Assembly: GCA_011089965.1 (NCBI GenBank)
Contig: JAANAU010000001.1
Coordinates: 62,001-126,000, forward strand
Direction: 5' to 3'
DNA from: Magnetococcales bacterium
GTDB lineage: Bacteria > Pseudomonadota > Magnetococcia > Magnetococcales > Magnetaquicoccaceae
Length of the DNA: 64,000 bases
Below are positions 3,331-61,051 of this stretch, one piece after another. Position 1 is the first letter of the stretch. Every line of letters starts with the position of its first letter. Under the pieces are notes generated by a model. That model ran no database searches. It had not been told where the DNA came from and saw only the letters and a list, made by a program, of their open reading frames with translations. Made by a program: the position numbers and the translations under genes.

Positions 3331-3366
3331 ACACCCGCCGTCTGATTGTATAATGAGGAGAATACC

Positions 3367-4257
3367 ATGACTTTGGAGTTTGCCTATTATCCCGGTTGCG
3401 CGGCCAAACAGATTCAACGCGAGGCCGATCAGGCAGCCCGCGCGGTGTGTCAGGAACTGGGAATCACCTTGAAAAACATGCCGCGCGCCTCCTGTTGCGG
3501 TGCGGTAAGCCTGCGCGAAACCAAACCGGCCTTTGCCATGGCCGTGGCCGCCCGGATCCTCTCCGAGGCCGAAGCCATGGGCAAGGATCTGGTGACCATC
3601 TGCAACACCTGTCTGCAAACCTTGACCCATGCCAACTACCGGTTGAGCAATGAACCGGAACTGCGCGACAAGATCAATGCCGTCCTGACCGAATCCGGAG
3701 TGCGTCCCTATGAGGGGAGCATCAAGGTACGTCATCTGCTGTGGGTGGTGACTGATCTGGTCGATCCGCGCATCTTGAGCAGTCGCATCACCAAACCCCT
3801 CAAGGGACTGCGTATTGCCGGCTTTTATGGCTGCCACTCCCTGCGTCCCGAAGAGATCTTCAACCATACGACCCAACAGGCCGAAGGTCGCCATCTGGAA
3901 CGGCTGATCCGTCTGATGGGCGGGGTTCCGGTCGAGTATGTGGGTCAGGATCGCTGTTGCGGGTTTCATGTCATGCTTTCGGACAAACACGAAATGCATG
4001 CCATGGTGGCCAAAAACTGCCTGAGCGCCAAGGATGCCGGTGCCCAGATCATGATCACCCCCTGCACTTTGTGCGATATGATCATGGGTTCGGTGCAACA
4101 GATCGCTGAGAAAAGCGTTCAACGCACCATCAACCTGCCGGAGATGAATTTTGCCCAACTGCTCGGTCTGAGCATGGGCATCTCCAAAGATCAACTCGGT
4201 ATCTCGCGCCTGCATGTCGATCCGACAGCCGCGCTGGCCTCTGTCGGCTTGGCATGA
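3367..4257 (+). CDS. CCG-domain (HdrB/SdhE-like) subunit of fumarate reductase/succinate dehydrogenase
   Basis: 296 residues with two cysteine-rich CCG domains: YYPGC, ASCCG and CNTCLQTL in the N-terminal half, and FYGCHSL, DRCCGFH and TPCTLCDM in the C-terminal half. Each set forms the unusual non-cubane [4Fe-4S] sites of heterodisulfide reductase subunit B and of SdhE in type E succinate:quinone oxidoreductases. No transmembrane helix is apparent, so it substitutes for the heme b/quinone anchor, possibly binding the membrane peripherally. A TTG at 3346 is in frame, but the ATG at 3367 has TGAGGAG 6 nt upstream and starts at the domain. It is the last of three clustered subunit genes. The electron partner (quinone, thiol or another donor) is not known from sequence. 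Confidence 0.88.
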   Translation: MTLEFAYYPGCAAKQIQREADQAARAVCQELGITLKNMPRASCCGAVSLRETKPAFAMAVAARILSEAEAMGKDLVTICNTCLQTLTHANYRLSNEPELRDKINAVLTESGVRPYEGSIKVRHLLWVVTDLVDPRILSSRITKPLKGLRIAGFYGCHSLRPEEIFNHTTQQAEGRHLERLIRLMGGVPVEYVGQDRCCGFHVMLSDKHEMHAMVAKNCLSAKDAGAQIMITPCTLCDMIMGSVQQIAEKSVQRTINLPEMNFAQLLGLSMGISKDQLGISRLHVDPTAALASVGLA

Positions 4258-4336: not shown

Positions 4337-6451
4337 GTGAGCCACGATCACATTCACTTTGCCCATCTGCTCTCTCCCCACTCCATTGCCATTGTCGGTG
4401 CCTCGCGCTTTGCGGAAAAACTGGGCCACACCATTCTGCGCAATGCCATTTCCGGCGGTTTTTCCGGTCCGGTACACATTGTCAATCCCCATGGCGGAGA
4501 GATTCTGGGACATCCGGTCACACCCCATCTGAATGCCTGTCCGCGCGGAGTCGAGCTGGTGGTATTGGCAGTTCCGGCAGCCATCATCCTGGAACAGGCA
4601 AAACTGGCCATTTCCCGTGGCTGCAAAGCTTTGGTGGTCCTTTCGGACGGCTTCAGCGATCTGGATGCTGAAGGGACCAAACGGGAACAAACCCTGGCCA
4701 AACTCTGCCGTGAACGGGATGTTCCGTTGCTTGGACCCAATTCATTGGGGGTGATCCATCGCCGTCACGGTCTGAACGGTTCGTTGACTTTGGGCTACCC
4801 TCCTCCTGGCGAAGTGGCTTTGCTGACCCAATCGGGTGCCATTGCCGCTGCTGCCCTGGAGTGGATGGCCGGACGGAATCTGGGCCTCTCCAAAATGATC
4901 AGTCCGGGCAATGAAGCCGGACTCACCATGGCCCAATGTCTCTCTTATTTGACGCATGACCCGGAAACCCGCGTGATTGCCTGTCATCTGGAACGGATCA
5001 CGGATGGCGCCGGTTTCTTGCGGGCGGCCACGGAAGCATCCCGTGGCAAACCGGTGGTCTTGTTGTTGGGCGGCAGCAGTGAATGGCGCAACACAAACCG
5101 ATTGGATCCGGATGAAAGCTTGCCGGATGGACCTGCCGGGGTGTTTGCTGCGGCTTGTGATCGCACCGGCATCATTCAGGCTCACGACTTCCAGGGTTGG
5201 CTCGATTGTCTGATGGCTTTGAGCCACTGTCCGACCCCCCAGGGGGAACGGGTGGCCGTGATCAGCAATGGCATGGGTCCGGGTCTTTTGACAGCGGATC
5301 TGTTGGCCAAACAAGGTTTTCAATCGGTTGGGTTGGCCCCTTCACTGGCCACCCCTTTGAAACCCATGCTCCCGGATTGTGCCAGCCTGCGCGGTCCCCT
5401 GGATCTGTGCGGTGTGGCCCAACCCGATCACTTCCTGAAAACGTTGCAGGCCGTGGAACAGGACGACGACATTCACGCCGTGGTCGCCGTGATCACACCC
5501 CAGCCGTTAACCAAGCCGGTTCCCATCGTACGTGCTTTGCTCTCTGAAGGTCATCCGAAAAAACCGCTATTGACCGTACTCCTGGGTGGAACGCTGGCCC
5601 GCTCCGGCATTGCCGAGCTGGATCAACTGGAGTCCGCCGGCTACTCCACCCCGGAACGGGCTGCGGAAGCCTTGAGTGCTTTGCTTCAGTATGGACGGTG
5701 GCGTGGTCGTGGTCCGCGTATTCTGGAACAGTTCTCGGTCAATCGCAGCCGGGTGCGGCGTTTGATTCAGCGTCATCATGTCTTGGGGATCACCCATTTG
5801 TCGGATCTGTCTGCCAAAGAGATTCTGCATGCCTATGGGATCCAGATTCCGGAAGGAGAGATTGCCGCCACCCTCGATGAAACTTTGGAAATTGCCGAAC
5901 GGGTCGGTTATCCGGTTTCATTGCATCTGATCTCCCCTGAACTGCATCTGGCCAGCGAGATGGATACCAGACATGTGGATCTGCCTGATCCGCGCGCCCT
6001 GCGAGATGGTTTTGATCTGTTGACCTTGCGCTTTGCCAGACTGGTTCCCGAAGGACGCATGGAAGGCATTTTTGTCGAAAAGAATGTCACCCATGGCCGA
6101 CCGGCATCCATGGGTATGATCCGGGACCGACAGTTCGGACCGTTGTTGCATGTGGGCGGACCAGATCCCATGCCCCGCGAAGAAACCATCAGTCAGTTGG
6201 CTCCGGTCACCTCTGACGAGGCTCTGGCCATGCTCCGTGCCGGTTGCCGCCAGCAAAAGATCCACAACCTGTGCGCAGAGATGAACGAAAACGAACTGCT
6301 CGGCGTAGCCGAGGTCTTGCAACGTCTCAGCCAGCTGGCCATTGACTTTCCGGAGATTCGCCGGGTCGAAATCAATCCGTTGATCATCCGACGCGCCGGA
6401 CTGCCTCCGGTGGCCACGGCTTGTGAATTGCGTCTGCAACACGAGGAGTGA
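4337..6451 (+). CDS. NDP-forming acyl-CoA synthetase homologue, catalytic residues missing
   Basis: 704 residues starting from GTG (TGGAG 11 nt upstream). The order is CoA-binding Rossmann domain (about 1-130; SIAIVGASRF, LLGPNSLGV), two succinyl-CoA-ligase-like flavodoxin domains (about 140-460), then an ATP-grasp domain (about 490-700, ending EINPLI). In active ADP-forming acetyl/acyl-CoA synthetases a SHTG histidine is phosphorylated; here the aligned stretch between KPVVLLLGG and GVFAAACDRTGII reads LDPDESLPDG with no histidine. The ATP-grasp domain has also lost the usual VVLK lysine (VSLH) and the HKSD..GGV loop. The protein is therefore probably non-catalytic, like the synthetase half of Pat/PatZ lysine acetyltransferases, perhaps a CoA or acyl-CoA sensor. 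The next gene supplies a GNAT domain. Function is inferred. Confidence 0.8.
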   Translation: MSHDHIHFAHLLSPHSIAIVGASRFAEKLGHTILRNAISGGFSGPVHIVNPHGGEILGHPVTPHLNACPRGVELVVLAVPAAIILEQAKLAISRGCKALVVLSDGFSDLDAEGTKREQTLAKLCRERDVPLLGPNSLGVIHRRHGLNGSLTLGYPPPGEVALLTQSGAIAAAALEWMAGRNLGLSKMISPGNEAGLTMAQCLSYLTHDPETRVIACHLERITDGAGFLRAATEASRGKPVVLLLGGSSEWRNTNRLDPDESLPDGPAGVFAAACDRTGIIQAHDFQGWLDCLMALSHCPTPQGERVAVISNGMGPGLLTADLLAKQGFQSVGLAPSLATPLKPMLPDCASLRGPLDLCGVAQPDHFLKTLQAVEQDDDIHAVVAVITPQPLTKPVPIVRALLSEGHPKKPLLTVLLGGTLARSGIAELDQLESAGYSTPERAAEALSALLQYGRWRGRGPRILEQFSVNRSRVRRLIQRHHVLGITHLSDLSAKEILHAYGIQIPEGEIAATLDETLEIAERVGYPVSLHLISPELHLASEMDTRHVDLPDPRALRDGFDLLTLRFARLVPEGRMEGIFVEKNVTHGRPASMGMIRDRQFGPLLHVGGPDPMPREETISQLAPVTSDEALAMLRAGCRQQKIHNLCAEMNENELLGVAEVLQRLSQLAIDFPEIRRVEINPLIIRRAGLPPVATACELRLQHEE

Positions 6452-6459
6452 TCCATACC

Positions 6460-8337
6460 ATGAATCATCCCCATGCCAATCCCGATCCCCAGTGGACCAG
6501 CCGCTATGCCAAACAGATAACCAGTGCCACCGAGGCGGTTCGACGCATCAAACCGGGCCAGAGAGTTTTCCTGGGTACAGGCGCTGCGGTGCCTCGCGCT
6601 CTGGTCCGGGCCATGATTCAGGAACATGCCCGGCTGGCCGATATCGAAGTGGTCATGGTCTTTGTGGTTGGCGAACTGCCTCTGGTCGCCAAGGAGTTGG
6701 TTGACACCTTCACGGTGAATACCTTTTTTGTGGCCGACAATACCCGGGCCATGATACAGGCCGGGAGTGGCGATTATACGCCAATTTTGATGTCGGATAT
6801 TCCACGCCTTTTTTCCAGCGGTCAAATGCCTCTGGATGTTGCCATGATCCAGGTGACCACGCCGGATCTGGAAGGGGAGGTCAATCTCGGCATTGCCGTC
6901 GATGTGATCCGCTGTGCCACCGAAAACGCTGGCCTGGTTATTGCCCAGGTCAATCCATCTCTGCCACGTACCTATGGGGACTCCAATCTCTCCATTTGGG
7001 ACATTGACCTGTTGGTTCCGGAAGAGGAGTCCTTGCCTGAGGTGATCTTTCCGACTCCGGATGAGTCAATCGAAAGAATTGGCCGACACATCGCGGGGCT
7101 GATTCCAGATGGTGCCACCATCCAGATGGGACTGGGCCGGGTGGCGCAATCATCGATCAAATACCTGACAGGAAAGAAAAATCTTTCAGTTCATACCGAA
7201 ATGATTTCGGATTCGGTCCTGGATCTGATCAGTGCAGGTGCCATCACCAGCCCGGAAAAAAACCACGATGCCGGACAAGTGGTGACCAGTTTTGCCATGG
7301 GCAGCCGCAAACTGTATGCTGCGGTCAACAACTCCCCCTGGTTCTCATTTCGGCGCACCGAATATGTCAACGATGTGCGCACCATTGCCCGTCAGCAACG
7401 CATGGTGGCGATCAACGGTGCTTTGCAGGTGGATCTGACCGGACAGGTGTGTGTGGACTCGTTGGGTTCCACGCTCTACTCGGGTATTGGTGGCATTCTG
7501 GACTTCAATACCGGGGCTTCAAACGCTGCCGAAGGCCGTTCGATCATTGTGGTGCCGTCCACGGCCCGCAAAGGCAAAATCTCCCGCATTGTCCCACGTT
7601 TAACCCCAGGCGCAGGTGTTGCCTTGAACCGGGGTGTGGTTCATTACGTAGTGAGCGAATTCGGGATTGCCTATCTGTTCGGAAAAACCATCCAGGAACG
7701 GGCACTGGCACTGATCGGGATCGCCCATCCGGAGTTCCGGCTACGACTGCTGAAACGGGCCGTGAAACAAGGGCTGATCCGTCCGGAAATCGGCAATGTG
7801 GATGGCCAGATCTGGGTGGGCGGCAAGGAGCTGCGCACCTCCATGGTACTCGATACCGGTCAATTGGTCACCTTCCGCTCCTCCCGGCCCACGGACTGGA
7901 AACCGATCAAAAAGATGTTGTACTCGTTGTCCGAGGGCACGGTCTATCGCCGTTTCATGAGTCACGTCAAACGGTTCCCGTTCAATCGGGTCAAGAATTT
8001 CACCTTCATCGATCAACGGCGCGACGTGGTGATTGTGGGCGTGATTGCCGATGGCAAGGACGAGTGGGTGATTGCCATCGGTGGCTACAACGTCGAGGAG
8101 GGGGGCAGCAATCGCGCCGAAGTGGCATTCCTGGTGCGGGATGAGTGGCAGGGTCAGGGCATCGGCACCTTCATGATGCGCCATCTCACCAACATGGCGC
8201 GCAATGCAGGTCTGTCCGGAGTCACAGCCGAAACCCTCATGGACAACCGCCCCATGCAGGCCGTACTGGAAAAATGCGGCTTTTCGGTTCATACCCGCAT
8301 CGATGGGGAAACTGTCCATTTCGATATCGACTTCTGA
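6460..8337 (+). CDS. Acetyl-CoA hydrolase/transferase fused to GNAT acetyltransferase
   Basis: 625 residues. Residues about 1-430 match the acetyl-CoA hydrolase/CoA-transferase family (GQRVFLGTGAAVPRALV near the N-terminus, GLGRVAQSSIKYL, and GGILDFNTGA in the second half), which moves CoA between acetate and other short acids. Residues about 470-625 form a GNAT domain with the acetyl-CoA binding segment DEWQGQGIGTFMM and the C-terminal GFSVHTRIDG. The fusion occurs as a known architecture in several bacteria. It begins 8 nt after the stop of the synthetase homologue; a GTG at 6448 is also in frame but would overlap the GAGGAG ribosome site, so the ATG at 6460 is preferred. The pair may link CoA/acetate status to protein acetylation. 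The acetylated substrate is unknown. Confidence 0.87.
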   Translation: MNHPHANPDPQWTSRYAKQITSATEAVRRIKPGQRVFLGTGAAVPRALVRAMIQEHARLADIEVVMVFVVGELPLVAKELVDTFTVNTFFVADNTRAMIQAGSGDYTPILMSDIPRLFSSGQMPLDVAMIQVTTPDLEGEVNLGIAVDVIRCATENAGLVIAQVNPSLPRTYGDSNLSIWDIDLLVPEEESLPEVIFPTPDESIERIGRHIAGLIPDGATIQMGLGRVAQSSIKYLTGKKNLSVHTEMISDSVLDLISAGAITSPEKNHDAGQVVTSFAMGSRKLYAAVNNSPWFSFRRTEYVNDVRTIARQQRMVAINGALQVDLTGQVCVDSLGSTLYSGIGGILDFNTGASNAAEGRSIIVVPSTARKGKISRIVPRLTPGAGVALNRGVVHYVVSEFGIAYLFGKTIQERALALIGIAHPEFRLRLLKRAVKQGLIRPEIGNVDGQIWVGGKELRTSMVLDTGQLVTFRSSRPTDWKPIKKMLYSLSEGTVYRRFMSHVKRFPFNRVKNFTFIDQRRDVVIVGVIADGKDEWVIAIGGYNVEEGGSNRAEVAFLVRDEWQGQGIGTFMMRHLTNMARNAGLSGVTAETLMDNRPMQAVLEKCGFSVHTRIDGETVHFDIDF

Positions 8338-8438: not shown

Positions 8439-11213
8439 ATGAATATCACCCAAAAAATCTATCTGGGTTTCCTCTCCCCACTCCTCATGTTACTGATTCT
8501 TGGCATCTGGGGCATTGTGGTCACCAATCAAGTGACCCATGAAACGCAACGGGCTTACGAACACGGATTCAAACTGGCCATCCGGGCCAAACAAATGGAG
8601 CTGCATGTCATTCAGGTACAGCAGTGGCTTACCGATATTTCCGCCACCCGGGCAGCCTCCGGCTTAGATGACGGATTCCGCAAGGCCGATGAACATGCCA
8701 AACAGTTTCTGGAGGGAGTGGACTCCTTCATACAACTGGGCCGCAGCCAGCAGGATCCGGCGCTGCTCAAAGAGATGGAGACACTCACGGAACGGTTTCA
8801 GAGCTATTATGCCATAGGCCAGAAAATGGCCAAAGCATATATCGAGGGCGGTCCAGTGCAGGGCAATGCCCTGATGAATGCCTTTGACACCCAGGCAGAA
8901 TCCTTCACCGCCATATTGAATCCGTTTCTGGAAAGATATCTGCAACTGGCGGAAAACCGCTTCGGATTGATTGAACGACGCCTGTCCATCTTGCAAGGCG
9001 GAACCATATTCATTCTGTTGGCAGCACTTGGTGTCGTTGTTTTTCTGGGATGGCGTTTGGGACGTTCATTGACCCAACCCATTCATGCCATGGTGGGCAT
9101 GATGGAACAGGTGGGCAATGGAGATCTGACCATGCCACCCCGGAATGACCAGCGCCAGGATGAACTGGGGTTGATGCAACACCATGTGGATCGGGTCATT
9201 CGGATTTTTGGTGAAAACATTCGTCAGATCAATCTCCAGGCTGCCAACATCACGGCCTTTGTATCCGAGATCCTCACCTTGCGCCAAAGCATCGGCACCA
9301 GCAGTCGGGATCTGAGTCATACGGCCCACGATGTTGCCCAACACAATCATGCCCTCATTCATGAAATCCAACAAATCAAGGATCATGTCGATCAATCGGT
9401 GCACAATCTGGAAGGGGTGCATGGCGCTGCCCGACAGGTTGCAGACGGTATCAGCACCATTGCCAACACCACGGAACAGGCAAATGACAGCCTCTATTCC
9501 ATGTCCAATGCCGCACAACGGATGTTGGGCAACATCGAGCGTGTCCATTCCCAGGTGACCGAAGTACATGATGCCATCAGCAGTGTGGCCGATTCTGCCG
9601 AAGAGATGAAACGCTCTTTGGAAAATGTGCGTCAACGCTGTCATGCAGCGGTTTTCGAGTCGGACACGGCCCGGGATCAGGCACGCGAGGCCGAAGCCGT
9701 CATGGAGAAGCTCTCGTTCTCAGCCCATGAGATTGGTGCGGTCATCGAGATCATCAATGGCATTACCGAACAGACCTTCATGCTGGCGCTGAACGCTGCC
9801 ATCGAAGCGGCAGGAGCGGGTGAAGCCGGCAAAGGATTTGCCGTGGTGGCCACTGAGGTCAAGGAGCTGGCGCGTCAAACCGCCAATGCCACCCTGTTGA
9901 TTCAAAGCCAGATCGAAGCCATTCGCGAACAGACCCGTGAAGCCAAAGAAAAAACCGATACCATTCATGATGCTGTGGAGCGCATCAGTGCGGCCAATGC
10001 CGCCATCAATCAATCCGTATCCGAGCAGAGCCAAGCCACCGATCAAATCGTTCAGGCAACGGGCAAGGTGGAGCAGGCCACGGCAGAGGTCAATCATGGG
10101 GCTGAAGAGTTGCAACAGGCTGCCAGCGAAGTGGCATTTGCTGCCGAACGGGCTGCCCAAAGCAGTCAGGAGATTGCCAACTCATCCGAACAGATTGCCA
10201 TTCTGGCCCAGGAGATGGAAGATCGCACCTATGCCACGGTTGAAGCGGCTCAGGCCATTCAACAGGCTGCCGGTCGCACCGATCAACTGGCAGCCGACGT
10301 GCGCGCCAAGACCGACCACTCCTTGCAGGTCGTGGCGATCACACATGGCATTGTCAACCATTTCCAATCCATGGGAGATGTGGTGGGGGGCATCAGCGAG
10401 GCGCTGTATGCAGCCCAGGCCCGCATGGATATCGGCCCGGAGCCATTCAACATCCGGCGCATCAAGGAAGCGGTGTTGCGTCTGATGTACCGGCTTCATA
10501 TGGCCATAACCACTCACGATCCCAGCCTGGCAGATCAGATCGCCGATCCACGCAGTTGTCTGGTGACCCGCTGGCTGGATGACGAGGTGCGCTCCCGGTT
10601 TGGCGCATTGCCGCTGTTTGACAAGATGGAGGCCACACATGACCAACTCCATAAAACCGCCATGGAAATATTGGAACTGGTCCGGAATGAGAAACCGGAT
10701 GAGGTCCAGGATGCCTTTATGTTTTTCCACGAGCTGCGCAAAGTATTGTTTGAGCAGCTCAATCAGCTCTATCTGGGAGAGGTGGATGACCATTTCTCCC
10801 ATGCTCCGCTCATCCGCTGGCGTGATTCCCTGTCCGTTGGCATTCAAGCCTTTGACATCGATCACCGCAATCTGATCGAGCGGATCAATCAACTGCACAC
10901 AGCCATCCAGCAGCAGCACACCAAAGAAGAGATGCAGAGGATCCTGGAGGAGTTGATCAACTACGCCACCACCCACTTCACCCGCGAAGAGCGCCTGTTG
11001 GCAGATCATGGTTACAGCCATCTGGAAGGTCAACAGCAGCAACACAACAAGTTCTTGAATTATATCAAAGAACAAACCCATCTACTCCACAGGGAAGACT
11101 CTTTTGCCCTGGCATCCGAACTGTTGAAATACCTCAAGGATTGGCTGTTGCAACACATTCTCAAGCATGATATGCGTTACAAAGAGTTTCTGGTATCCAA
11201 AGGCGTCAAATAG
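8439..11213 (+). CDS. Methyl-accepting chemotaxis protein with CZB-like and hemerythrin domains
   Basis: 924 residues. Transmembrane helix 1 (about 8-30), a helical periplasmic domain of about 150 residues, transmembrane helix 2 (about 187-207), HAMP (about 207-265), and a long coiled-coil signalling domain whose hairpin tip reads [16 protein letters not shown] region with C-x4-W (CLVTRW) and H-x3-H (HDQLH) resembles the zinc-binding CZB domain, although its first conserved histidine is not evident. The C-terminal 120 residues are a bacteriohemerythrin domain ([25 protein letters not shown]). The usual HKxxH pair reads QQQQH, so one expected iron ligand is glutamine. Likely role: aerotaxis or redox/metal taxis through CheA/CheW. 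No cognate che genes are in the window. Confidence 0.92.
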
Positions 11214-58479: not shown

Positions 58480-60209
58480 GATTCCGTGTCAGTCTGATCC
58501 CCACCCTCAAGGAAGCGCCGGTCGAGGCCCATACCGTCTCGCATCGCCTCATGCTGCGTGCCGGATTGATCCGTCCATTGGGATCTGGCATCTATACCTG
58601 GCTGCCGTTGGGACTGAAAACGCTGCGCAAGGTCGAGAACATCGTCCGGGAAGAGATGGACGCAGCAGGTGCCCAGGAGGTGTTGATGCCCGCTGTCCAA
58701 CCTGCGGAACTGTGGCGCGAATCAGGCCGCTGGGACCATTATGGCAAAGAGCTGTTGCGCATCCGCGACCGGCATGAACGGGAGTTCTGCTTCGGACCCA
58801 CCCACGAAGAGGTGATCACCGATCTGGCGCGCCGCGAGCTGAAATCCTATCGCCAGCTCCCGGTCAATTTCTATCAGATCCAGACCAAATTTCGCGACGA
58901 GATCCGCCCCCGCTTTGGCATCATGCGCGGACGCGAATTCCTGATGAAAGATGCCTACTCCTTTGACATGGATACCGCTGGCCTCGAAGTGACCTATCGC
59001 AGCATGTACGACACCTATGGACGGATCTTCAGACGCTGCGGTCTGCGTTTCCGACCGGTCGAAGCCGACACCGGCTCCATCGGCGGATCGGCCTCCCATG
59101 AGTTTCATGTGTTGGCCTCTTCGGGCGAGGATGTGATCGTCTCCTGCTCCCACTGCAACTATGCCGCCAACCTGGAAAAGGCCATCAGCGCCCCGCTGCT
59201 CGCCCCGCCCAACCCGGAGGGCGATGCACCCATGCGACTGGTCGAAACCCCGGGCCAGAAATCGATCCAGGAGGTCAGCACTTTTCTGAAGGTGGAGACC
59301 CGGCGACTCATCAAGACTCTGGTGGTCGAAGGGGATGGCCAGGCCTGCCTGTTGCTGCTCCGGGGAGACCACGAACTCAACCCGATCAAGGCAGCGGCAG
59401 CCTTGGGGGTCCGGAATCTCGTCATCCCCGAGGGGAGTCGCATTGCCGAGTTGACCGGAGGTCTGCCTGTCGGATTTATCGGACCTGTCCAGACCGACCT
59501 GCCGATTGTGGCCGATTACGCCCTGGAAGGAACCAGCGGCATGGCATGCGGCGGCAATGCCCCGGATCGCCACTGGATCGGGGTCACGCTGGGACGTGAT
59601 CTGCCCACACCCCGTTTTGCCGATCTGCACAATGTGGTCCAGGACGACCCCTGTCCACGCTGCGGCCCTGGTCTGCTCAGCCTGGATCGCGGCATTGAAG
59701 TCGGACATGTCTTCAAACTGGGCGACAAATATTCCAAAGCCTTGGGGGTCTCCGTACTCGACCCGGACGGCAAGGAGCGCACCCCGATCATGGGGTGTTA
59801 CGGCATTGGCGTTTCACGCATCGTGGCTGCGGCCATCGAACAGAACCACGATGACAACGGCATCATCTGGCCCGTGGCCCTGGCCCCCTTCGAGGTGGAG
59901 ATCCTGCTGGCCAACCCCAATGAACCTCTGGCCCTCCAGACCGCCGAAGCCCTCTATGCCGAATTGCGCTCACGCGGCATCGGTGTCCTGCTCGATGACC
60001 GGGACGAACGGTTGGGGATCAAGTTCAAGGATGCCGATCTGCTCGGCTGCCCGCTGCGTGTGGTCGCCGGAGGACGCGCCCTGAAAGAGGGCAAGGTGGA
60101 ACTCCAGATCCGTCGCACTGGTGAAGCCATTCCAGTGGAAATCCCTCAGGCCACCGCCACGATTCTCGAACGGTTGCAGACCCTGCTGCACGCGGAGTCC
60201 AAAGGGTGA
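58476..60209 (+). CDS. proS: Prolyl-tRNA synthetase
   Basis: 577 residues, normal for the bacterial type with the inserted editing domain (about 220-400; [15 protein letters not shown] precedes it as [13 protein letters not shown]). Class II motif 2 is [17 protein letters not shown] and motif 3 is [18 protein letters not shown]. The C-terminal anticodon domain follows ([20 protein letters not shown]). Charges tRNA(Pro). Coupled with folE2 before it and the sirtuin behind it by 4-bp overlaps (ATGA and GTGA). Confidence 0.97.
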
Positions 60210-61051
60210 CGGAATATCCGGACCTGACACGTGCTGCCCAATCCCTGCGTGCGGCCTCGGCGCTGTTGATCACTGCCGGGGCCGGCATGGGGGTGGACTC
60301 CGGTCTGCCTGATTTTCGCGGACAAACCGGTTTCTGGAACGCCTATCCTGCCATTGCCCGCCTGGGACTCTCCTTTGCGCAGATGGCCAATCCCCACTGG
60401 TTCCAACGGGATCCGCGTCTGGCCTGGGCCTTTTACGGCCATCGCCTCAACCTCTACCGCAACACCCAACCCCATGACGGCTTCACACAACTTCTCAAAA
60501 TGGCCGCCACAAAACCTGCCGGAGGCTTTGTCTTCACCTCCAATGTCGATGGCCACTTCCAGAAAGCCGACTGGTCCGAACAACAGGTGGCCGAGTGTCA
60601 CGGCTCGATCCATCACCTCCAATGCACCCGCCCCTGTTCTCCAGCCATCTGGAGTGCGAACGGGATCACACTCGACATCGATCCCGAATCGTTCCGGGTC
60701 ACAGGCCCCATGCCCACCTGTCCACACTGCGGGGCATTGGCCAGACCCAATATCTTAATGTTCGGGGATGGCAACTGGATCGAACACCGCTCCGCCCAAC
60801 AGGAACAACGCCTGCACCAGTGGCTGACCCGTCTGCACACAGAACGGCAACCTCTGGTGATCCTCGAAATCGGTGCCGGACATGCGGTTCCCACCATTCG
60901 TGTCAACTCAGAGTCGATTGCCGCACGCCATCAGGCCCTGCTCATCCGTATCAATCCCCGTGATCATGACCTGCCCCATGCCCGCCATGTTGCCCTGGCA
61001 TGCAACGGTGCTGCCGGGATCAAAGCTCTCTGGCAGAAACTGCACGATTGA
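60206..61051 (+). CDS. SIR2-family NAD-dependent protein deacylase
   Basis: 281 residues, GTG start overlapping the proS stop (GTGA). NAD site: ITAGAGMGVDSGLPDFRG; FTSNVDGHFQKA in place of TQNID..H; catalytic His in AECHGSIHHL; zinc cysteines in CTRPC and CPHCG; and LEIGAGHAVPTIR in place of the usual GTSL..VP. GAGMGVDSG instead of GAGIS marks a divergent sirtuin subfamily found in many proteobacteria whose substrate is not established. Deacetylation would oppose acetyltransferases such as the GNAT-domain protein at 6460-8337; this link is inference only. Confidence 0.88.
   Translation: MTEYPDLTRAAQSLRAASALLITAGAGMGVDSGLPDFRGQTGFWNAYPAIARLGLSFAQMANPHWFQRDPRLAWAFYGHRLNLYRNTQPHDGFTQLLKMAATKPAGGFVFTSNVDGHFQKADWSEQQVAECHGSIHHLQCTRPCSPAIWSANGITLDIDPESFRVTGPMPTCPHCGALARPNILMFGDGNWIEHRSAQQEQRLHQWLTRLHTERQPLVILEIGAGHAVPTIRVNSESIAARHQALLIRINPRDHDLPHARHVALACNGAAGIKALWQKLHD

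Follow-up and report, generated by a model that had tools for sequence, protein, structure and literature searches.

A probable split lysine acetyltransferase of the acetate switch: a CoA-transferase–GNAT fusion and its degenerate acyl-CoA synthetase partner in Magnetococcales

A stretch of 64,000 nucleotides from a Magnetococcales bacterium (contig JAANAU010000001.1, positions 62,001 to 126,000; here called the window, within which coordinates are given) carries two overlapping genes. They encode a homologue of the nucleoside diphosphate (NDP)-forming acyl-CoA synthetases and a CoA-transferase fused to a GNAT acetyltransferase domain. We propose that this pair is probably a split lysine acetyltransferase of the acetate switch, with AcsA as its main target and the synthetase as an in-trans partner that senses acyl-CoA. 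We infer such a module from the motifs of the two proteins, the clade of the synthetases, the coupling of the genes, the selection acting on them, and a neighbourhood with acsA, AcuB-like, and histone deacetylase (HDAC)-like genes. The pair is a real, well-supported variant of the acetate switch, and the seemingly dead synthetase is a derived, order-specific form of a widespread partner. The pair is apparently undescribed so far, as a search of the open-access literature found no description of the CoA-transferase–GNAT fusion or of its operon.

The two proteins of the window

The synthetase gene (4337..6451, + strand) encodes 704 residues with the domain order CoA_binding_2, Succ_CoA_lig, a weak Ligase_CoA match, and ATP-grasp_5; GNAT is absent. 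Over its full length, the protein matches the ADP-forming 4-hydroxybutyrate-CoA ligase and Escherichia coli PatZ with almost equal E-values. Alignment with the ligase (8wzu), PatZ (9isq), and homologues bears out the claim of an earlier note on this DNA that both catalytic loops are missing. In the former phospho-histidine loop (residues 238–265; 5048..5131, + strand), the S-H-T-G motif, MSHTG in the ligase, is replaced by RLDPDES, with loss of His-Thr-Gly. In the former ATP-grasp loop (residues 524–549; 5906..5983, + strand), the lysine has become histidine, and HKSDxGGV has degenerated to HLASEMDTRHV. The VEV segment of the second glycine-rich loop is likewise missing. Judged from its sequence, then, the synthetase is catalytically dead, with the catalytic histidine and the ATP-grasp residues absent, and it is proposed to serve as an acyl-CoA-sensing or scaffold subunit.

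A displaced catalytic histidine was looked for, and neither the alignment nor the model revealed a replacement conserved across the synthetase family. In the AlphaFold model (mean per-residue confidence, pLDDT, 90.5; predicted template-modelling score, pTM, 0.87), residues 255–258, the expected site of the histidine loop, are among the few with pLDDT below 50. The best solved relative of the model is liganded PatZ (template-modelling score, TM, 0.87 by query), followed by the Nitrosopumilus ligase (0.79); its first 460 residues can also be aligned with the ACD1 alpha subunit (TM 0.89 by target).

The second gene (6448..8337, + strand) is an open reading frame (ORF) of 629 residues whose start overlaps the stop of the synthetase gene in the sequence GTGA (6448..6451, + strand), an arrangement suggestive of translational coupling; an alternative ATG start lies at 6460. 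As the earlier note held, the GNAT domain resides on this next protein, fused to a CoA-transferase in the order AcetylCoA_hydro, AcetylCoA_hyd_C, Acetyltransf_1. Synthetase and GNAT are thus borne by separate ORFs and not by one chain, as in Pat/PatZ. The protein matches 4-hydroxybutyrate CoA-transferases over 430 residues, and its C-terminus matches the GNAT domains of PatZ and mycobacterial Pat (MtPat), which are the nearest solved relatives of that domain; a weaker GNAT match is to the arsinothricin N-acetyltransferase family. Its model has a pLDDT of 82.3, with the best 4-hydroxybutyrate CoA-transferase matches at TM 0.89–0.95 by target. The transferase domain (6505..7782, + strand; assigned from domain matches and the model) retains the catalytic glutamate of HTE, here HTEM, and its GGQ motif reads GGI. 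The Pat-like GNAT domain (7837..8334, + strand; assigned from domain matches and alignment) has an intact AEVAF glutamate and an intact QxxGxG acetyl-CoA loop, QGQGIG.

These features extend to relatives. The transferase glutamate is present in 61/61 proteins from outside Magnetococcales and in 19/20 from inside, with one substitution by aspartate. The GGQxDF loop is GGILDF in the window; the paired Magnetococcales proteins long enough to include the motif number 19, and all have isoleucine, valine, or leucine for its glutamine. Of the paired Magnetococcales proteins that extend to the GNAT domain, 19/19 keep its glutamate and acetyl-CoA loop, one of them with lysine for the first glycine of the loop. 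A second CoA-transferase–GNAT paralogue, 39% identical and without a synthetase neighbour (G000:C20:273362-275125; L095:8297-10186:-), is found in the majority of Magnetococcales genomes, and genes of this synthetase-free type in another Pseudomonadota family have an HDAC-like gene after them (L117-L122).

Spread of the pair and stepwise loss of catalysis

A search through 84,980 species genomes, for which the paired synthetases were aligned as the query, returned 80 loci, in 78 of which a transferase–GNAT relative adjoins the synthetase. Outside the order, these loci include Desulfobulbaceae, Verrucomicrobiota, Planctomycetes, Kiritimatiellae, Lentisphaerae, Nitrospinota, and a Trueperaceae metagenome-assembled genome. 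The closest named relatives are Magnetococcales, among them Ca. Magnetaquicoccus inordinatus UR-1. Within the order, where 41 related genomes were compared (G-numbers below), the two genes are adjacent in 19, and among the Desulfobulbaceae genomes with the transferase, the pair is adjacent in 17 of 18. The Magnetococcales junction is usually an ATGA, GTGA, or TTGA overlap, with ATGA the most common in relatives; an overlap of four nucleotides occurs at no fewer than 12 Magnetococcales junctions, and the spacing is exactly −4 at 22 of 64 loci elsewhere. No full-length fusion was found in the plasmid collection. An apparent fusion of the synthetase and transferase genes in G002, an ORF of 1071 residues, proved to be an open frame running through the neighbouring gene in another frame and was rejected.

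In trees that are FastTree approximations, the Magnetococcales synthetases form one clade apart from the Pat clade. Together with the remaining paired synthetases, it makes up a group (support 0.996) that lies close to the ligase branch and outside the Pat clade (1.0).

The earlier note had placed the dead synthetase at the heart of the system, and here the comparison speaks against it. The catalytic histidine, the ATP-grasp lysine, and the HK..GG loop are kept in 65/65 partner synthetases from outside Magnetococcales, and even among sampled Pat sequences, 14 of 16 have histidine at the catalytic position. Inside the order, the loss is graded. In four deep branches (G018, G021, G024, and G025), HTG survives but the ATP loop does not; the derived clade has no HTG motif and, in 14/14, histidine in place of the ATP-grasp lysine, two aligned rows having a histidine in the catalytic column without the following TG. 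In G001 and G002, an internal deletion is added to the loss of the motifs. Therefore, the death of the synthetase is derived and came about in steps, in a pair that is far older; as read from the alignments, the ATP site was lost before the histidine. Independent loss of catalysis has also occurred in a fused protein, the true Pat of G037 (L092:6721-9420:-), whose synthetase half is degenerate, with ADEN in the histidine loop and the ATP loop lost.

A linker motif, W..R.PR....F.VN..RV.R (residues 454–477; 5696..5767, + strand), is specific to the paired clade. Its key residues are nearly invariant in the paired proteins (W455 81/83, R458 79/83, R461 83/83, N469 83/83, R472 82/83, R475 82/83), are retained in the dead synthetases too, and are not conserved in Pat or the ADP-forming ligases. 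The segment is a candidate for docking or signalling. In close f1 genome pairs other than G001–G002, the ratio of nonsynonymous to synonymous substitution (dN/dS) of the dead synthetase is 0.05–0.14, about equal to that of the transferase domain; in G001–G002, it is 0.34. Constraint is usually strongest on the GNAT domain, whose values are 0.01–0.07 and, in G001–G002, 0.16. Because its dN/dS is low and the linker motif is kept, we regard the dead synthetase as a maintained protein. Two extra synthetase copies, one in each of two relatives, which lack the N-terminal CoA-binding domain and lie ~2.7 kb from acsA (L088:3107-4741:- and L073:6838-8502:-), have a dN/dS of 0.53 and are probably decaying.

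Neighbouring genes and comparison with known systems

The informative neighbours of the pair are acsA, AcuB-like, and HDAC-like (AcuC-type) genes rather than those of the reverse tricarboxylic acid (TCA) cycle, and they point, as the earlier note supposed, to a role in protein acetylation. In eight Magnetococcales genomes, acsA lies within ~1.2 kb of the pair or one of its genes. Six of these (G011, G012, G014, G015, G025, and G026) have it divergent from the pair or its synthetase; relative to a solo transferase, it is divergent in G013 and in tandem in G030. G024 has, in a row, the acsA C-terminus, a sodium:solute symporter gene, and the pair. Outside the order, acsA is near the pair in 12 loci. 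The order in Verrucomicrobiota is synthetase, transferase–GNAT, histone deacetylase, and acsA, without AcuB; in Desulfobulbaceae, it is histone deacetylase, AcuB-like, synthetase, and transferase–GNAT; and in several other loci of the Planctomycetes–Verrucomicrobia–Chlamydiae group, acsA is divergent. An AcuB-like gene, whose product has its best PDB match, over the full length, in the CBS-CBS-ACT protein AcuB, is directly upstream in 17 loci, and an HDAC-family (Hist_deacetyl) gene is found in 25; draft contigs hide some neighbours. The motif PKTRSGK is intact in all four AcsA proteins whose C-terminus was read.

In the window itself, the genes immediately upstream of the pair are KorAB, SdhAB, and an HdrB-like gene, while the acsA of the same genome, divergent as well, is 13.7 kb away, beyond the Kor/Sdh block; beside the pair, there are neither AcuB nor AcuC genes. 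Members of Magnetococcales, which are magnetotactic cocci, have been reported to fix carbon via the reverse TCA cycle (PMC6783814), and the earlier note was right about this proximity in the window. The whole block, however, precedes the pair only in G000, G005, G008, and G010, with Sdh/HdrB also in G006, where the contig ends. A general link to the cycle was rejected, as relatives keep the pair in other surroundings without those genes, and the proximity is confined to a handful of relatives and lineage-specific. The sirtuin that the earlier note mentioned is likewise real: it is a Sir2-family protein (60206-61051; PF02146, 70 bits), divergent from classic sirtuins, whose gene immediately follows that of a class II tRNA synthetase carrying an editing domain. 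A role as partner is not supported, since it lies ~52 kb away and sister systems carry an HDAC-type deacetylase gene instead. Of the genes flanking the pair, that at 3346-4257, after SdhAB, encodes the HdrB-like CCG protein, closest to SdhE, the membrane anchor of 8-methylmenaquinol:fumarate reductase (198 bits, under its cut-off); directly 3′ of the pair, 8439-11213 encodes a chemoreceptor with HAMP, MCP signalling, weak CZB, and C-terminal hemerythrin domains.

The classic target of the Pat/PatZ lysine acetyltransferases (type I/II GNATs) is AcsA. Like these enzymes, the pair combines an NDP-forming acyl-CoA synthetase module of the same overall fold with a Pat-family GNAT, and E. coli PatZ, like the window synthetase, lacks the catalytic histidine. 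It differs in having the two modules on two proteins, with GNAT fused to a CoA-transferase, and in its synthetase, which belongs to another clade, is intact in most pair-bearing bacteria, and in the window has a more degenerate ATP-grasp site than PatZ. The paired clade groups with the ADP-forming acetyl-/acyl-CoA synthetases (ACD; Nmar 4-hydroxybutyrate-CoA ligase, 8wzu), with which it shares the single-chain domain order, but it has its own linker motif, and the Magnetococcales copies lack the catalytic histidine and ATP loop. The N-terminal 440 residues of the second protein have the fold and catalytic glutamate of 4-hydroxybutyrate CoA-transferases (3gk7, 2oas, and 9vag), from which it differs by the added C-terminal GNAT and by GGI, GGV, or GGL for GGQ in paired Magnetococcales.

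The nearest parallel in gene arrangement comes from Bacillus subtilis, in which acsA is divergent from acuABC (PMC13121692). There, AcsA is acetylated by AcuA and deacetylated by AcuC, and AcuB senses adenine nucleotides (PMC13121692, PMC13039410). The pair shares the divergent acsA and adjoins AcuB-type (Desulfobulbaceae) and HDAC-type genes (Desulfobulbaceae and Verrucomicrobiota), but its acetyltransferase is a CoA-transferase–GNAT fusion with a synthetase partner, whereas AcuA stands alone. The acuABC system also supplies a suggested precedent for regulation by a separate subunit acting in trans (PMC8556138, PMC13121692). The sensor role that we propose is modelled on the synthetase half of PatZ and Salmonella Pat, which binds acetyl-CoA and is required for activity (review PMC8556138).

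Proposed mechanism and rival explanations

The catalyst would be the Pat-like GNAT domain borne on the CoA-transferase, which would switch off the acetate-activating enzyme AcsA by lysine acetylation, while the partner synthetase would report the acyl-CoA/CoA state. In most pair-bearing bacteria, the synthetase looks active and ADP-forming and may convert acetyl-CoA to acetate and ATP. In these, the operon could couple ATP-yielding acetate release to AcsA shut-off and, therefore, is proposed to prevent a futile cycle. In Magnetococcales, after the stepwise loss of catalysis, the synthetase would persist as a sensor or scaffold, an in-trans counterpart that has converged on the N-terminal half of E. 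coli Pat.

Several points weigh against this proposal. The CoA-binding residues of the dead synthetase were judged on sequence and fold, no HDAC-type gene was found in the window's own genome, and acsA is not adjacent to the pair in some genera of the order (G018 and G021), where the link to the target leans on other genomes. In G019, G020, G022, and G037, the CoA-transferase–GNAT occurs without the synthetase, which is therefore not indispensable. No fewer than 12 Desulfobulbaceae genomes carry Pat as well as the pair; hence, the pair is not simply a replacement for Pat and need not be the AcsA-modifying enzyme there, and the idea that the two exclude one another was dropped. Within Magnetococcales, such exclusion does seem to hold: four genomes with Pat (G029, G032, G035, and G039) lack the CoA-transferase–GNAT, and G037 has Pat and a solo copy.

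Could the main task of the pair be the metabolism of CoA esters and acetate, through CoA transfer and ADP-forming ligation, with GNAT in a minor or self-regulatory part? The near-universal transferase glutamate, the synthetase intact outside Magnetococcales, and the position of the window pair after the KorAB/SdhAB/HdrB genes would all suit such a task. We nevertheless think it unlikely, given the dead synthetase of Magnetococcales, the changed GGQ in all paired members reaching it, the one glutamate-to-aspartate change, and the GNAT residues and GNAT dN/dS, which are the most constrained; moreover, it is not obvious what AcuB- and HDAC-type neighbours would do in simple CoA metabolism. The functional versatility of GNAT domains and the arsinothricin N-acetyltransferase match might suggest that a metabolite, such as a polyamine or amino acid, is acetylated with acetyl-CoA handled by the transferase, without any protein target. 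The best matches being the protein lysine acetyltransferases PatZ and MtPat, and the neighbours being acsA, AcuB, and HDAC genes, this seems quite improbable.

The earlier note saw in the pair a re-arranged Pat, split so that its GNAT moved onto the transferase. The parts, the working logic, and the Pat family of the GNAT domain do agree with that view, and the kinship of the GNAT domain stands. Such a derivation is, however, very hard to reconcile with paired synthetases that form their own clade outside Pat and with a pair that spans several phyla and coexists with true Pat. We therefore retain the split acetate-switch acetyltransferase as our reading. A broader form of it, which we offer tentatively, would be a lysine acetyltransferase holoenzyme made of two proteins, widespread and distinct from the five published bacterial GNAT types, with the synthetase and the CoA-transferase as paired acyl-CoA/CoA sensors; in one order, the synthetase would have been reduced to a pseudoenzyme that only senses, in convergence with E. 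coli Pat.

If the proposal is true, the published five-type GNAT scheme lacks a branch of the bacterial acetate switch that is common and spans several phyla. The synthetases would also offer a natural evolutionary series from enzyme to sensor, passing from the intact form through loss of the ATP site and of the histidine to internal deletion, with the partner and the linker motif kept throughout. Finally, the long-standing question of the role of Pat's inactive synthetase half could be put to the test with two separate proteins, which can be mixed and mutated independently.

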